From assembly GCA_003010405.1 (NCBI GenBank), contig PJLO01000002.1:1-64000 (forward strand): DNA of 64,000 bases, written 5' to 3'. Positions 17,603 to 45,110 of the stretch are shown piece after piece. Both the position numbers and the translations under genes were made by a program. Origin of the DNA: Acidobacteriota bacterium. Its GTDB lineage: Bacteria > Acidobacteriota > Terriglobia > Terriglobales > Acidobacteriaceae. Below the pieces are notes generated by a model. The model was not told the DNA's origin. It did no database searches and saw nothing but the letters and a program-made list of their open reading frames with translations. Position 1 is the stretch's first letter, and every line of letters starts with the position of its first letter.

Positions 17603-18592
17603 TCAATCGCGTGTAATACGCATTCCGCCCCATGCCAACCCAGAACCCACGACCACCAGATGGACGATGCAGTTGCGCAACTCGTCCCAATTCTGCGACA
17701 GCACGGTGGGGGCTCCCGCCGCGCCGCAGTTTCCAAAATACTCGAGGTTGGCGTAGTGATCTTTCAATGCAATATCGGTGCGTCTGCAGACGTTCTCAAG
17801 CATACGCAGGTTTGCCTGGTGTCCAATGAAGACTTGGCGACGATTCTCGCTCGCAGGGACGGAGGCTTGTAACTGCTTCACAAGTTCGGTGGTGGTACGA
17901 ATTGCGAAGGCCTGTACGGCATGCCCTTCCTGTGCAAAGTGCCCACCCGTTGGAATCGTAATTTGGTGCTGCCCCGTCGGGTTGGAGTAGAAACTGGTTT
18001 CCGAAATCACCGATGACGAAGGGATGCGCGAGGAAACTATGGCAGCACTGGCGCCGTCGCCAAACAGGATGGCTTGTCGCCGGTCACTGTAATCGATGCT
18101 GTGGGTAAATATTTCGCTGTTCACCACCAGAACGTAATCGGGCAGCGCTTCCGGCCGCATCTGGTTCAGGAAGTGGATCTGCGACGCAAAGCTTGAGCAC
18201 GCCGATTGCAGGTCGAAGCACGGACATGGAGCGTCAATACCGAGCGCGTTGGCAACACGGCTCGCGTCAGCGGGAATCTGCATCTCAGGCGAGCATCCGC
18301 CAGAGACAACCATTCCCAGTTGACAAGCCTCAATTCCAGCACGCCGCAACGCCATTTCCGCAGCCCGCGCCGACATTTGTGTGGGCGTCGTGTGGGCCGC
18401 TTCGGCTCCAGCACGGGGATCCCTGTTGTACGTCTTGCGCAAATAATCCAATGGCAGCGTGGTGCGTCGTTCGATAATGCCGACCCGATCCTCGATCCAT
18501 TTCACATCCACCCCAATATCAAGGGAGGACAGAAAATGATTGTCGAGAACTGTTTCGGGATGAAAATGTCCTAGGGCGTGGAGGTACAGCAA
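17603..18592 (-). CDS. 3-oxoacyl-ACP synthase III-like condensing enzyme
   Basis: KAS III/FabH-fold protein of 329 residues. The catalytic triad is complete: Cys132 in SACSSF, His258 in GHQAN and Asn288 in FGNCGAAG. It would condense an acyl-CoA with malonyl-ACP or another acyl thioester. It lacks neighbouring fab genes, and relatives with such isolation include OleA-like and secondary-metabolite KAS III enzymes, so I do not call it FabH. The start is TTG at 18592 with AGGAG 7 nt upstream. It is divergent from the 938-residue fusion gene, with 353 bp between them. Confidence 0.88.
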   Translation of the reverse strand: MLYLHALGHFHPETVLDNHFLSSLDIGVDVKWIEDRVGIIERRTTLPLDYLRKTYNRDPRAGAEAAHTTPTQMSARAAEMALRRAGIEACQLGMVVSGGCSPEMQIPADASRVANALGIDAPCPCFDLQSACSSFASQIHFLNQMRPEALPDYVLVVNSEIFTHSIDYSDRRQAILFGDGASAAIVSSRIPSSSVISETSFYSNPTGQHQITIPTGGHFAQEGHAVQAFAIRTTTELVKQLQASVPASENRRQVFIGHQANLRMLENVCRRTDIALKDHYANLEYFGNCGAAGAPTVLSQNWDELRNCIVHLVVVGSGLAWGGMRITRD

Positions 18593-18945
18593 AAGTGTCT
18601 CCTCTGAATCGGCGATTCAACCAAGTTGCAATGTGGCAATGTGTTGAAGTCTAAATCGAGCGAAGCCCCGGTACAATGCAGCGGCGCTCTCTTTGGGGAT
18701 GCCGAGCGGGTTGTGACAGAAATATTACGCATCCGAGCTCTGAACTGCTCTGCAAGACCAACCTTGCTGTGTCGAAAATCATTTTCCGGCTATTTCAAAT
18801 CCAGAATGAAGACGCTTCTGTGAAAGGAGCTGGCTTAAACAGAGCTCAAGCATCCCGCGCTCGATTTTCTTCGTCCTATGTGAGTAGCTGTTTTTAAAGA
18901 TTCCATGTCTGAAGGTTCCATGCCTGAAGAAAGGATACTGGGACT
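18593..18945 (+). other. Divergent intergenic region upstream of the fusion gene
   Basis: It should hold promoters for the KAS III-like gene (minus) and the fusion gene (plus). A TACAAT is at 18672-18677 but its best upstream TTGAAG is 22 bp away. A 14-codon frame, ATG 18905 to TGA 18949, overlaps the GTG start of the fusion gene by the GTGA arrangement. No other gene is supported. Confidence 0.4.
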
Positions 18946-18949
18946 GTGA
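18905..18949 (+). CDS. Possible 14-codon leader peptide coupled to the fusion gene
   Basis: ATG at 18905, with a second in-frame ATG at 18920, opens a 14-residue frame (MSEGSMPEERILGL) whose TGA overlaps the downstream GTG as GTGA. The only hint of a ribosome-binding site is a weak AAAGA. If translated it would feed ribosomes to the GTG start. It may be chance. Confidence 0.3.
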   Translation: MSEGSMPEERILGL

Positions 18950-21762
18950 GCGCGGCAACTTCCAAAGCTGTGGACACGATCGAATCCGAGCGCCGTTTTT
19001 ACGAGCGCTACGCTTGGTGCCTTAACCCCTTTCAATCGATGAGCCAACTGTTTGTGCGGCTCGAAGACGAGCTGGCATGGTTTCCTCGCCTGACGAGCGA
19101 CTGGCAGCGGAAGGAATCGCGTACCAACCTCTTCCTTCTGACTTGTGCGATAAACTGCACGGTCTCGGATTACCTTGCGCCGTCTCTCCCATCCTTTGCG
19201 AAGCTGGCATCTCAATTTCGTCGTGCACGATTCGCGATAAAGGTCCTTGGCAAGGTCTCGACGAGCAGCTTCCGCCTGCGCAGTCTCCTGTTCGATTCCG
19301 CCGTTTATCACTGGAGCGAAGATTGGAAGCAATGTGTCGAACTTTCCTGTGAAATCCTTCTGAACGAAGACGAGCCAAACAGTCCGAAAGTAGCCCGCCT
19401 GGCTGCTCTCAGCCGCCAGTTGGCAGGCCGTGCCCTACCGAAGAAACTGCTTACGATGCGAATGCAACTGCCTTCCGGCTTCCGTGCGCAGGATCTGACG
19501 CACTATGACGTTCTGGCGCTGGCTGCTGCGTTCGCACGCTCTCATCCAGTTTGTGATGGCACGCTGGCCATCATTGGGGCGCGAACTGCGGGAGCCTATT
19601 TTGCGGCGTTGATGCGCACGAGGTTGCAGCGGGACGGATGGAATTCAGCATGGATATCTATCCGCCCGAAAGGCGGCGTGAGTTGGTGGGAGAGGAAATT
19701 TCTCCGCAAAACTGCTAAACGGGCAGCGAGAGTTTTGGTCGTGGATGACTACCCGGACACAGGCGAAACCATTCGTCTCATGATCGATCTGCTCGGTGAC
19801 TATGGTGTGGAACACCGGAACATCACTGTGGTGGTGCCCGGCCACGAGGCGCAAAGAAGCCCGCAGGTACTTACGGGAGGCTATGCCGACGTCGAGCTCG
19901 TTACGATTTCACCCCAGGAAACCTACGCCCACCGTTTGCTCGCCGGTCATACACTGAAGCCGCTGCTGGAACAGTTTTTATCCCGCGCCCTTCGCGCCAA
20001 TCTTCAGTTCGTCGACGACCAACAAACAACGGCAATCAACCAGCGGCTCGAATCACACTTACAGGATGATTTCCAGGTTCATATAAAACGTGTTTACGCT
20101 TTCAAAACACCTGAAACAGGTGATAACGTCCGCAAGGTTCTGGTAAAGGGCGTTGGCTGGGGATGGCTGGGATACCATGCTTTCCTGTCCGGAACTCGAT
20201 TACAGGAGTTTGTTCCCAGGGTTTTAGGTTTGCGAGATGGCCTGTTATTTAGCGAGTGGATAGAACCGCCGCCGGGCGGATCTGAAATTGATAGCAATGC
20301 CTTTTCATCCAGAGTAGCTGCTTACATTGCCGCACGCGTGAAGTTGCTTCCCCTCGCCGAGCACCCGTCGACCGATCAGCCTGCTTTCAAAGCAGGGGGG
20401 TGGTACACGGCGGCCAAGGTTCTGCGCGGCGTGTACCCGCCATATCTGCGGCTGCTGAAGATGAACGCACTCTGGCCCGCACTGACGGCGTTTGCCACCC
20501 CTCAACCCACATTCATAGACGGCAAACTCAATGCGGAGGAATGGCTGAGCGATGGGAAAAAGCTGCTGAAAGTCGACTATGAACATCACGGGTTCGGGAA
20601 CCCTTCGCCCAATATTGTCGACGCGGCGTACGACCTGGCGCTGGCTACTCTGCAACTTAACCTGTCGCCGGAAGCACAGGCTCGCCTGCTGGACGAATAC
20701 ATCGGGTTGACCGGAGATGTGAACGTTCGCAAACGTTTCGTGCTCCACACAATAATCTCTGGTCAGCTGGCTAAAGAATACGCGAGCTTTCATTCACCTC
20801 GCGCTCTTTCCCTTGAATCGCGCAAGCAGTTGGAAGCCGGCCATATTCGGGCGCACAACTTCCTTTTTTGCAGCTTAAGCGATTTTTGCTCCTCGGAATT
20901 CGTCCAATCCAGGCCCACGCATTGGTCAGACCGTTTGTTTTTCATGGACCTCGATGGAGTATTCGACCGTTCCTACTTGTTCTTTCCGCACGCAACAGCT
21001 AGCGGCTTTGCCGCACTTGAGTCTCTCAATCGGCAAGGATATTCCGTCGTGCTCAACACGGGCAGACCAGCAGCTCACGTACGCAAATATTGCTCTTCCT
21101 ACGCTCTCTCCGGAGGCATTGCAGAGTACGGTTGTGTCTTCGTCGACGGCATCAATAAGCGCGAAACGGTCCTGATCGACGAAGATAGCCGCGAACGGTT
21201 GGCTTGCCTCAGAGCGCAATTGAGTGCTGCTGAGGACATTTTTCTGGACCCGACCTACGAATTTGCGATTCGGGCCTACCGCTTACAAAACGGTAAGGCC
21301 GTCTGCTTGCCGCAGGCTCTTGTGACCGAGGCGCTACGAGATTTTCCGCAACTCACGTCTTTTTCCAGTCCGGTTGACACATACATATTTCCCGTCAGTG
21401 CGGGAAAGGGTTCTTCAACCGAGTGGGTGATGGAGCACTTCTCGGTTCCGAGGGGGGCAACCGCTGCCATTGGCGATTCGGAGATGGACATTCCGATGCT
21501 GGACAGTGTTGCGAAAGCCTATGTTCCCGCCAATGCATCGCAAGCCATGATTGTCCAAACTCGCCGCAATGGGTGCACCATTCTGGATACTCCGTTCCAG
21601 CGCGGATTAGTGGATGCGGTCAATTGCCTTCTGGGAGAATCGGCATGCTCACCAAGTGATTTATCATCGCAGCCGGAACATGTAGTAAAGACCCTGCTGC
21701 GGATTGCCGACCGAACCGCCGTGCAACACTTGAATGCCGTTCTGAAACCAAATCGGTTGTAA
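18946..21762 (+). CDS. Three-domain fusion: phosphoribosyltransferase, kinase-like, HAD phosphatase
   Basis: A 938-residue cytoplasmic protein. Residues 1-180 form an unassigned helical region. Residues 185-345 look like a type I phosphoribosyltransferase: IIGARTAG (209-216) and the PRPP loop VLVVDDYPDTGET (263-275). Residues 380-620 resemble an aminoglycoside/choline-kinase fold: VLVKGVGWGWLG (398-409), hinge-like FSEWIE (435-440), DGKLNAEEW (525-533) where kinases have HGDLH, and VDYE (543-546) with a metal-binding-type Asp544, then DLA. Residues 663-895 are a Cof/sucrose-phosphatase-type HAD: MDLDG (D668, D670), NTGRP (704-708), K821 and GDSEMD (843-848). GTG is the start; GGGA lies upstream. 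Together they suggest building or recycling a ribosylated, phosphorylated metabolite. Domain calls are by eye; the function is unknown. Confidence 0.8.
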   Translation: MSAATSKAVDTIESERRFYERYAWCLNPFQSMSQLFVRLEDELAWFPRLTSDWQRKESRTNLFLLTCAINCTVSDYLAPSLPSFAKLASQFRRARFAIKVLGKVSTSSFRLRSLLFDSAVYHWSEDWKQCVELSCEILLNEDEPNSPKVARLAALSRQLAGRALPKKLLTMRMQLPSGFRAQDLTHYDVLALAAAFARSHPVCDGTLAIIGARTAGAYFAALMRTRLQRDGWNSAWISIRPKGGVSWWERKFLRKTAKRAARVLVVDDYPDTGETIRLMIDLLGDYGVEHRNITVVVPGHEAQRSPQVLTGGYADVELVTISPQETYAHRLLAGHTLKPLLEQFLSRALRANLQFVDDQQTTAINQRLESHLQDDFQVHIKRVYAFKTPETGDNVRKVLVKGVGWGWLGYHAFLSGTRLQEFVPRVLGLRDGLLFSEWIEPPPGGSEIDSNAFSSRVAAYIAARVKLLPLAEHPSTDQPAFKAGGWYTAAKVLRGVYPPYLRLLKMNALWPALTAFATPQPTFIDGKLNAEEWLSDGKKLLKVDYEHHGFGNPSPNIVDAAYDLALATLQLNLSPEAQARLLDEYIGLTGDVNVRKRFVLHTIISGQLAKEYASFHSPRALSLESRKQLEAGHIRAHNFLFCSLSDFCSSEFVQSRPTHWSDRLFFMDLDGVFDRSYLFFPHATASGFAALESLNRQGYSVVLNTGRPAAHVRKYCSSYALSGGIAEYGCVFVDGINKRETVLIDEDSRERLACLRAQLSAAEDIFLDPTYEFAIRAYRLQNGKAVCLPQALVTEALRDFPQLTSFSSPVDTYIFPVSAGKGSSTEWVMEHFSVPRGATAAIGDSEMDIPMLDSVAKAYVPANASQAMIVQTRRNGCTILDTPFQRGLVDAVNCLLGESACSPSDLSSQPEHVVKTLLRIADRTAVQHLNAVLKPNRL

Positions 21763-42708: not shown

Positions 42709-43809
42709 ATGCTTATCATGAAGCCAGAGTTCCGGTCCATCGTGATTTTTGGAGGAGCCGGGTTTATCGGCTCAAACTGGACGGAGCGGCTGCTGAATAG
42801 AACCGAAGCGAAGGTGCATGTGGTCGACAACCTCTCGCGACCGGGCTCACGACATAATCTGGAGTATCTGCAGAAAATAGCCGGTCCGAACGGACGATTG
42901 CAGATCACAATCGGAGATGTGCGTGATGCTGCGACAGTATCACGGGCGCTTAGAAGCGCAAGCGAGATCTACAATTTCGCCGCGCAGGTTGCAGTCACAA
43001 CCTCGCTGACCGATCCCAGGCTTGATTTCGAGGTAAACCTCGGCGGCACCTTCAACATTCTGGAAGCGGCTCGATGGCACGGGCGTAATCCGTACCTGCT
43101 GTTTACCTCTACGAACAAGGTTTATGGCAGTTGTGGAGATCCGGATGTGCGCGTGGAAGGCAACCGCTACGTGCCGGTTGCGCCAGGCGGAACAGATGAG
43201 TCACAACCGCTTGATTTCCACTCACCTTATGGCTGCTCCAAGGGTGGAGCCGACCAGTATGTGCGCGATTACGCGCGCATCTATGGGCTGAATTCGGTGG
43301 TCTTCCGTATGTCCTGCATTGCAGGGCCACGTCAGTTCGGAACTGAAGACCAAGGCTGGGTTGCTCATTTTCTGTACTCCGCGCTGGCGGGCAAGCCGCT
43401 CACGATCTATGGCGATGGGAGGCAGGTGCGGGATGTGTTGTACGTGGACGATCTGCTGCGTGCCTTCGAGGCTGCTTATCGGAACCGCGAGAAAACAGCG
43501 GGGCAGATCTTTAATATCGGAGGCGGGCAGAAGAACACGGTTTCGTTGCTGGAGCTCATCGACCGCATAGAAGAGCTTACCGGAGTGCGTCCGTGCTACA
43601 ACTTTGATGATCAGCGCGCGGGCGATCAGCTTATATACGTCACCAATCACGCCAAGTTTTCGCGTTTTACCAGGTGGCGACCAGAAGTAGGTGTGGACGG
43701 CGTTCTAAAGGGAATCTACAAGTGGTACACCAATAATCGCGAACTGTTCGCCTCCTCGCCAGCCGAACACCTGAACCAGGTGCTCACCCCGGCTCGGAGG
43801 ACAGCTTGA
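42709..43809 (+). CDS. Extended SDR sugar-nucleotide epimerase (CDP-paratose 2-epimerase-like)
   Basis: Extended short-chain dehydrogenase of 366 residues acting on nucleotide sugars. The NAD loop is GGAGFIGS (15-22), the catalytic residues are Thr135 or Ser134 with Tyr174 and Lys178 (YGCSK), and the family signature RMSCIAGPRQFG-TEDQGWVAHF is like CDP-paratose 2-epimerase. It should epimerise a CDP- or other NDP-linked sugar. Starts at ATG 42709 or 42718 are both possible. Its stop overlaps the TTG of the radical SAM gene (TTGA), so the two are translationally coupled. Confidence 0.87.
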   Translation: MLIMKPEFRSIVIFGGAGFIGSNWTERLLNRTEAKVHVVDNLSRPGSRHNLEYLQKIAGPNGRLQITIGDVRDAATVSRALRSASEIYNFAAQVAVTTSLTDPRLDFEVNLGGTFNILEAARWHGRNPYLLFTSTNKVYGSCGDPDVRVEGNRYVPVAPGGTDESQPLDFHSPYGCSKGGADQYVRDYARIYGLNSVVFRMSCIAGPRQFGTEDQGWVAHFLYSALAGKPLTIYGDGRQVRDVLYVDDLLRAFEAAYRNREKTAGQIFNIGGGQKNTVSLLELIDRIEELTGVRPCYNFDDQRAGDQLIYVTNHAKFSRFTRWRPEVGVDGVLKGIYKWYTNNRELFASSPAEHLNQVLTPARRTA

Positions 43810-45110
43810 CCGCCCGCTTTGCGCTGGTTAATCCGAACTGGAGCTTCACCGGTTCGACGTACTTTGGTTGCCGTGATCCTCATATCCCGCTTGAGTTGCT
43901 CTTTGCAGCGCAGAAGATCCGTGCCAAGGGGAATCACGCGGCAGTCTTCGATGCTCAGACCGAAGACCTGACTCTGGCGGAGACGCGTGAACAGGTGGCT
44001 CGCTACGATCCTGACTTTCTGGTGATCCCCTCCGCGCCATCTTATCTGTTCTGGCGTTGCCCGCCGCCGGAGCTTCGTGTTCCGAGCGAATGGTTTGCCG
44101 GGCTCGAAGGCCAGGCGAAAAAGGTTCTGATCGGGCCGCATGGTTCCGCCACGCCCCGCGCAGCGATACGTAAAACAGGAGCCGACGTCATCATAAAAGG
44201 TGAGTGCGAGGACGCGCTCGCCGGGCTCGCCTCCGAGCCCTGGGAAATGCTCGACGGCGTGTGCTTCCGCGATAGCTCCGGGCGCGAGCACTTCAGCCCG
44301 GGTCTTGCTGTGGTGGACATGAAGACGCTGGCCGCCCTCGATTTTGCCGATTACAACGTAGAGAAGCACTGGCACCGGCATCACGTCTTCAATCAGGGCG
44401 ATGGGCGTGGAGCCGAGATCGAGTTCTCCCGCGGCTGCCCCTGGAACTGCATCTTCTGCAATAAGCAGCTCTTCCGGAACAAGTTCCGCGAGCGCGATGT
44501 AGATGCCGTGCTGCTGGAAATTGATCGTCTCATTGCTCGCGGGGTCGATTACATTTACTTCATCGACGAAATTTTCGGGGTTGGCAAGAATACGTTGCGG
44601 CTGCTGGAGGGGATAGCCCAGCGCAACGTCCGCATCGGATTCCAGAGCCGTATCGACCTGTGGAACGAAGAGAAGCTCGACTTGGTGGGCCGGGCTCACA
44701 CGATTTCTGCCGAGTTCGGCATCGAATCAATCACCGCCGCAGGGCGGGATGAGCTGAACAAGAATTGCTCCATAAATACCGAGCGCATCTACGAGCTGCT
44801 GGTTCGTGCCCGTCAGCACATCCCCTGGGTGCAGGCCAACCTTATTCTGACCGAACACGATAAACGCGACGAGATTCGCAGCTGGCAGGAACGAATGAAA
44901 GCTGAAGGAGTCTGGGTCAGCGAACCAGTCCCCATGTATCCGTTCCCCGGCTCGCCACTCTACCTGCAGCTCTTTGGTCCTCCCGATGATCAGGCCTGGG
45001 AGCGGGCTCATCATTACTACATCTCAACGTTTGAGACCAAGGGCTACAGTGACATTCAGGAGCAGCGCCCCAAAGCGCTGGAGGAGATGGAAAGAAACAC
45101 CACACTTTGA
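43806..45110 (+). CDS. B12-binding-domain radical SAM protein
   Basis: A 434-residue enzyme. Residues 1-150 form a cobalamin-binding-like domain (without the classical DxHxxG). The SAM cluster motif is C211-x3-C215-x2-C218 (GCPWNCIFC), followed by FIDEIFGVGKN. Such proteins often methylate or rearrange unactivated carbon, and related families accompany sugar-modification gene sets. TTG at 43806 is coupled to the epimerase stop. Together with that epimerase it suggests modification of a nucleotide sugar or glycan. No glycosyltransferase is next to them. Confidence 0.88.
   Translation: MTARFALVNPNWSFTGSTYFGCRDPHIPLELLFAAQKIRAKGNHAAVFDAQTEDLTLAETREQVARYDPDFLVIPSAPSYLFWRCPPPELRVPSEWFAGLEGQAKKVLIGPHGSATPRAAIRKTGADVIIKGECEDALAGLASEPWEMLDGVCFRDSSGREHFSPGLAVVDMKTLAALDFADYNVEKHWHRHHVFNQGDGRGAEIEFSRGCPWNCIFCNKQLFRNKFRERDVDAVLLEIDRLIARGVDYIYFIDEIFGVGKNTLRLLEGIAQRNVRIGFQSRIDLWNEEKLDLVGRAHTISAEFGIESITAAGRDELNKNCSINTERIYELLVRARQHIPWVQANLILTEHDKRDEIRSWQERMKAEGVWVSEPVPMYPFPGSPLYLQLFGPPDDQAWERAHHYYISTFETKGYSDIQEQRPKALEEMERNTTL

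Follow-up and report, generated by a model that had tools for sequence, protein, structure and literature searches.

Ribofuranose in bacterial glycans has been explained only recently, by pairs of PRPP-dependent phosphoribosyltransferases (PRTs) and HAD phosphatases. For the O antigens of Klebsiella and the capsule of Hib, the action of a PRPP-dependent PRT followed by that of a phosphatase is established, and in the synthesis of the ribofuranose of a Citrobacter O antigen a membrane enzyme replaces the PRT in the same two-step logic (PMC11127046, PMC10299916, PMC11231755). Where ribofuranosyl groups are transferred from PRPP into polysaccharides, PRT and HAD domains are known to be placed on one chain (PMC11127046, PMC10299916). 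This applies for the dual-domain gPRT+PRP ribofuranosyltransferases of Klebsiella O4/O7 and Thermobacillus composti as well as for CriT-CrpP of the Hib polymerase Bcs3. The nucleoside-like Ter-operon pathway of R478 (PRTase_2-TRSP, HAD, StiP-PELOTA, C-C bond lyase) pairs a PRT with a HAD-IIB phosphatase, too.

The DNA analysed here, called the window below, is a stretch of 64,000 nucleotides at the start of contig PJLO01000002.1 of an Acidobacteriota genome. Genomes, loci and contigs are numbered with G, L and C, respectively, G000 being the genome of the window. The uninterrupted ORF at 18946-21762 (+) encodes 938 residues, combining a PRT, an altered kinase-fold and a HAD domain on one chain. 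The same long protein was found in other genomes with 30-39% identity, which identifies the ORF as a real gene; the identical fusion in independent genomes rules out a fusion artefact or a sequencing error. Its features are as follows.

18930-18935, plus strand: Shine-Dalgarno-like AAAGGA, 10 nt upstream of the GTG (read directly from the sequence)
18946-21762, plus strand: coding sequence with GTG start, protein of 938 aa composed of N-terminal, PRT, kinase-fold and HAD domains (ORF list, full-length relatives)
18946-19473, plus strand: predicted all-helical N-terminal domain, residues 1-176, without Pfam match (AlphaFold secondary structure and pLDDT, Pfam)
19474-19995, plus strand: type I PRT domain by fold, residues 177-350 (PF00156 4e-5, fold match)
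19576-19593, plus strand: GARTAG, residues 211-216, presumed pyrophosphate loop (conservation, PRT family knowledge)
19732-19770, plus strand: PRPP-binding motif VLVVDDYPDTGET, residues 263-275 (sequence, conservation)
19999-20910, plus strand: choline-kinase/APH-fold domain, residues 352-655 (model, fold search)
20518-20544, plus strand: altered catalytic loop DGKLNAEEW, residues 525-533 (conservation in 23 sequences)
20575-20577, plus strand: D544, retained metal-site Asp, DFG-like (23/23)
20923-21624, plus strand: HAD-IIB phosphatase domain with C2 cap, Cof/S6PP-like, residues 660-893 (PF08282, TIGR00099/TIGR01484)
20947-20955, plus strand: HAD motif I, D668-L-D670 (both Asp in 10/10 relatives)
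21058-21060, plus strand: HAD motif II, T705 (10/10 relatives)
21406-21408, plus strand: HAD motif III, K821 (10/10 relatives)
21472-21489, plus strand: HAD motif IV, GDSEMD, residues 843-848 (G843, D844, S845 and D848 in 10/10)

A sequence-only reading of this DNA had described the protein as a fusion of PRT, kinase-like and HAD domains. Fold search and Pfam profiles bore out this assignment, and together with structure prediction they placed the domain boundaries nearly where that reading had drawn them. Pfam itself recognised the HAD domain and, below threshold, the PRT domain in the 938-residue protein, and returned nothing for the kinase-like middle region or for residues 1-176; the earlier reading had put down the first 180 residues as an unknown domain. 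An AlphaFold model of residues 1-660, built from 22 relatives (mean pLDDT 86, pTM 0.89), confidently predicts these N-terminal residues to form an all-helical domain, in which D75 is conserved in most relatives. Neither a membrane segment nor a signal peptide was evident in the protein, and the scan for promoters and terminators gave no result above chance. The protein had no match in phage and plasmid collections or in viral contigs, and the viral fold matches were single-domain choline kinases, PRTs or partial matches only, so that an origin from phages, plasmids or viruses was rejected. A literature search for a fusion of this kind found nothing.

The PRT part of the model matched PyrR with a Z score of 13.2 (141 aligned residues, rmsd 3.6) and UPRT, OPRT and APRT with Z scores of about 12; the corresponding PF00156 match of 4e-5 is sub-threshold. 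In the PRPP motif, D267 and G273 are conserved in all 24 three- and two-domain relatives compared, and residue 268 is D or E in each of them. G211, R213, G216, R240 and P241 are likewise invariant (24/24), the first three of these belonging to the GARTAG stretch which we take, from knowledge of the PRT family, to be the pyrophosphate loop. By its fold and its intact PRPP motif the domain is classified as a type I PRT with predicted transfer activity, in agreement with the PRPP-loop domain proposed from the sequence.

For the HAD domain, Pfam gave PF08282 with 7.2e-10 and S6PP with 1.3e-4, and NCBIfam (TIGR00099/TIGR01484) concurs on HAD-IIB. The complete motif set named by the sequence-only reading (DxD, Thr, Lys, GDSEMD) was recovered with all catalytic residues present in 10 of 10 relatives. 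Motifs I and II are 37 residues apart (D668-T705) and motifs II and III 116 residues (T705-K821), and the cap is inserted after motif II and before motif III, i.e. at the position defining the C2 type. CrpP, in contrast, carries a helical cap after motif I (PMC10299916). A further difference concerns the PRT, since the window protein keeps the adjacent acidic pair D267-D/E268, whereas CriT has D680 and E818 on separate loops (PMC10299916). The known ribosyltransferases have no counterpart of the kinase-fold domain. Common to both sides are the PRT fold and the HAD domain on one chain and, for those systems and most relatives of our protein, the location in polysaccharide loci (PMC11127046, PMC10299916, PMC11231755). 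Because cap position, acidic pair and kinase-fold domain differ, the window protein is probably an analogue of the gPRT+PRP ribofuranosyltransferases and not a member of this group. No solved gPRT+PRP chain appeared in the 60 best PDB hits to the profile, although entries may be missing from the copy searched, and the PRT fold matches listed did not include Bcs3 or the T. composti proteins, which is not evidence of absence.

The kinase-fold part, modelled separately (residues 352-660, pLDDT 82), matched 3csv with a Z score of 17.4 (249 aligned residues, rmsd 3.5), followed by the corramycin phosphotransferase (15.6), LicA (14.9) and NahK (14.2). The bilobal fold of the choline kinase/APH type is thus present (3csv Z 17.4), while at sequence level PF01636 was matched in only 2 of the 23 members (best value 6.6e-4). 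With the choline kinase/APH family the domain shares the fold, the N-lobe Lys and the DFG-like Asp. The replacement of the usual HGDLH by DGKLN (residues 525-529), noticed already in the sequence-only reading, was confirmed within this fold. In an ungapped alignment to HGDxxxxN, D525 takes the position of the His, residue 527 that of the catalytic Asp and residue 532 that of the Asn. In contrast to choline kinase/APH, residue 527 is K, R or H and residue 532 is E or D in this alignment, each in 23 of 23 sequences; so aligned, no member has the catalytic Asp of the HxD motif. D525 and W533 are invariant (23 sequences); all 23 sequences also share K542, D544 and H548, of which D544 represents the second metal-binding Asp, and K401 is present in 23 out of 24. 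D525 may serve as catalytic base through a two-residue shift in the alignment. Since the replaced residues are themselves invariant, decay of the domain is ruled out, and the conservation pattern points to an active site which is altered yet strictly fixed. To judge from these residues, the domain is probably not an ordinary kinase; its likeliest role is the binding of the acceptor or of a nucleotide, or else a reaction of non-standard type. The proposal that the protein works in three steps is not supported at this point, because a third, ordinary phosphotransfer is doubtful with K, R or H at the catalytic-Asp position of 23 out of 23 relatives.

Full-length relatives were found at five loci in four 'Bacteroidetes' MAGs (31-34% identity), assemblies of a kind which may be chimeric, furthermore in G264 and in the Acidobacteria G032, G533 and G640; G693 contains a fragment at a contig end. 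Among 396 Acidobacteria genomes the three-domain protein occurs in 4. A two-domain form of about 550-650 aa, consisting of N-terminal, PRT and kinase-fold domains, is present in other Acidobacteria. These proteins share the N-terminal helical region, the PRT motifs and the altered kinase loop with the window protein, but they lack the HAD domain, have other neighbours (DegT aminotransferase, SH3 lipoprotein) and show only 17-21% identity to it. Examples of about 550 aa are L009 and L099; the two proteins checked gave no Pfam match at all. The genome of the window encodes such a two-domain protein of 570 aa as well (G000:C52:79554-81266, corresponding to L099:7555-9267), and in L099, L017 and L024 the two-domain gene lies near genes for a DegT-type aminotransferase and an SH3-type lipoprotein. 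In the tree, three-domain and two-domain forms are separate (support 100/100), and the window protein groups with G032 and G693 (98/99), beside G533 and G640. With a strict cut-off the kinase-fold profile matched, among 119 evenly drawn genomes of the phylum, in the genome of the window only, so that both forms are patchily distributed.

A GNAT/FemAB-like gene (PF13480) and a divergent ProDH-like gene accompany the three-domain gene in the Acidobacteria loci L093 and L094 as well as in L096, L102, L103, L105 and L106; in L104 the ProDH-like gene is present and the GNAT match is distant only. This operon, whose genes abut or overlap in L093 and L096, is conserved across two phyla. Wider neighbours include genes for GT2, WecG, hexapeptide transferases, GH9, polysaccharide deacetylase and ATP-grasp proteins, in L096 also for a ComA-like protein. 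Around the gene of G032 we found a UDP-sugar dehydrogenase, a nucleotidyltransferase, a polysaccharide deacetylase, a flippase-like (Wzx-like) protein without Pfam match, two alpha/beta hydrolases, NRPS modules and a P450. Part of these neighbours come from a simple ORF-calling script, and their names were given by eye wherever Pfam had not been searched. Directly upstream of the ProDH-GNAT-three-domain operon of L096, a ComA-like gene (phosphosulfolactate-synthase-like) and two ATP-grasp genes are located (L096:2754-6328), one of the ATP-grasp proteins scoring just below the ATPgrasp_Ter cut-off. In the ProDH-like family (L093:7470-8495 and relatives) the KG and ATH motifs are conserved, but by eye the two arginines that a proline-specific enzyme should have are missing, which makes a substrate other than proline probable.

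Most relatives thus lie in polysaccharide loci. The window gene itself is situated outside such a locus, whereas its partner pair is inside one: on another contig of the same genome (G000:C21:26410-28369, corresponding to L113:12411-14370) adjacent and overlapping ProDH-like and GNAT/FemAB-like genes encode proteins with 49% and 43% identity to the partners in G640. They are neighboured by genes for a Wzz-like protein and Wzx; by eye, further genes there appear to encode a Wzy-like protein, along with a glycosyltransferase and a UDP-sugar dehydrogenase. Of the 396 Acidobacteria genomes, 5 encode the special ProDH-like protein, which at E below 1e-80 is clearly set apart from ordinary ProDH; 4 encode the three-domain protein and 3 have both (hypergeometric p ~4e-6, kinship ignored). 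Against this link, G032 and G693 possess the three-domain protein without the special partner, and in G644 and G687 no three-domain gene lies within about 10 kb of the ProDH-like/GNAT pair. Tree and partner distribution suggest as the simplest and likely history that the operon is the ancestral state, which was split in the lineage of the window and partly lost in G032 and G693.

In the window, a 3-oxoacyl-ACP synthase III-like gene (17603-18592, minus strand) is divergent from the three-domain gene, and a plus-strand gene 87 nt downstream of the latter encodes an Rv2525c-like, glycoside-hydrolase-like protein with signal peptide (PF08924, 21850-22683). Both, as well as cysK, were rejected as pathway partners, as they had no match (E<=1e-10) in the loci of the relatives. 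Two genes at 42709-45110 of the window encode an epimerase and a radical SAM protein of the B12 type, the family being judged by eye. In L097 their homologues (52% and 46% identity) share one cluster with genes for CgeB-like glycosyltransferases and a PRT-kinase-fold protein.

The predominance of surface-polysaccharide genes around the relatives suggests a role in such a pathway. Our main reading, to which we assign a probability of about 0.45, is that the protein is a multi-domain PRPP-dependent enzyme ribosylating an acceptor of a surface-polysaccharide (EPS) pathway. The ORF, its folds, the conserved motifs, the operon and the co-occurrence were observed; from these we infer the order of the reactions, the class of the acceptor and the role of the kinase-fold domain as follows. 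The PRT domain would transfer 5-phosphoribose from PRPP to the acceptor; removal of the 5'-phosphate by the HAD domain would then leave a plain ribosyl group. The kinase-fold domain might bind the acceptor or a nucleotide, act as a carrier or contribute a non-standard catalysis, and the GNAT/FemAB-like and ProDH-like partners would probably make or further modify the acceptor. The ribosylation reading is supported by the known polysaccharide ribofuranosyl layout of PRT and HAD on one chain, by the HAD catalytic residues kept in 10 of 10 relatives and by the PRT fold with its intact PRPP motif. The operon shared by two phyla and likely ancestral, the partner pair beside Wzz and Wzx and the co-occurrence in 3 genomes count in its favour as well. 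The existence of two-domain PRT-kinase proteins without HAD counts against it, as does the HAD type, which is not the C1-cap type of the known ribosyl phosphatases. Moreover, the window gene does not lie in a glycan cluster, its adjacent genes being those for KASIII and the Rv2525c-like protein, and we know of no ribose-containing product for any organism carrying these proteins. The idea put forward from the sequence is supported to the extent that a seemingly undescribed pathway, in which ribosylation from PRPP precedes a dephosphorylation, is likely.

Instead of a glycan, the product may be, in line with the sequence-only reading, a small diffusible ribosylated (nucleoside-like) metabolite, for which the PRT would join ribose-5-phosphate to a base or small molecule, the HAD domain would dephosphorylate it, and GNAT, ProDH-like and sometimes ATP-grasp and ComA-like proteins would build the aglycone. 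The ter operon of R478, where a PRT likewise goes together with a HAD-IIB phosphatase, speaks for this unlikely alternative, as do the ComA-like TIM barrel and the two ATP-grasp proteins adjoining the L096 operon, one of them near the ATPgrasp_Ter cut-off, and the NRPS and P450 genes near the G032 gene. Polysaccharide genes are, however, the more constant neighbours. The link to ter stress operons drawn by the sequence-only reading was not supported. PRTase_2 (PF15609) had no match in the window protein or its genome, and hhalign related the window PRT profile neither to the R478 ter PRTase nor to StiP; PRT family and absence of PRTase_2 exclude membership in a Ter operon. The window PRT belongs to another family and is fused to a kinase fold, a fusion which the Ter system lacks, and the TerY-associated kinase (annotated as InaA-family) proved unrelated to the kinase-fold domain by hhalign. 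Reading of the ORFs at 10-64 kb of the window, as distinct from a profile search, revealed no TerB, TerC or TerD, and the neighbourhood survey placed the relatives in polysaccharide clusters with a single sub-threshold ATPgrasp_Ter neighbour. The Ter comparison therefore holds as chemistry only, in the pairing of PRT and HAD-IIB.

Somewhat less probable still is a kinase-fold domain that is catalytic by another route, with D525 or E532 as base or metal ligand and Lys/Arg527 near the phosphates, so that all three domains would act in sequence by transfer, dephosphorylation and re-phosphorylation or adenylylation. The complete retention of D525, basic 527, E/D532, K542, D544 and H548 (23/23; K401 23/24) is consistent with this, and kinase folds with moved catalytic residues perform other reactions, the AMPylase SelO being a precedent (PMC12663964); the basic residue at the catalytic-Asp position of all members (ungapped alignment) argues against it. 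We consider it improbable that PRT and kinase-fold domain together form a PyrR-like sensor of PRPP or nucleotides, gating the HAD phosphatase without any ribosylation. In its favour, PyrR ranks high among the folds matched by the PRT, the sequence matches include the pur operon repressor, and the kinase-fold domain may be non-catalytic. However, likeness to the PyrR fold is common to all type I PRTs listed, the residues expected for PRPP binding are all invariant, and the protein contains no DNA- or RNA-binding domain.

Returning to the ribosylation of a surface-polysaccharide acceptor, a tentative extension, less probable than this reading itself, would be a new PRPP-dependent surface-glycan pathway of soil and environmental bacteria, in which a choline-kinase fold with an Asp to Lys/Arg exchange in its active site would have a new catalytic or carrier role between the PRT and the HAD phosphatase, joined by a FemAB-like acyltransferase and a repurposed ProDH-like flavoenzyme. 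With a basic residue in place of the catalytic Asp in all its members, the kinase fold offers a conserved case of such an exchange, and the three-domain gene forms with the GNAT and ProDH-like genes a compact and testable gene set. If the main reading is true, the Acidobacteria would harbour a second, differently built lineage of PRT and HAD proteins, distinguished by a HAD type of its own, a rewired kinase fold and two partner enzymes that are conserved, and ribose-bearing glycans or ribosylated decorations would be expected more widely.
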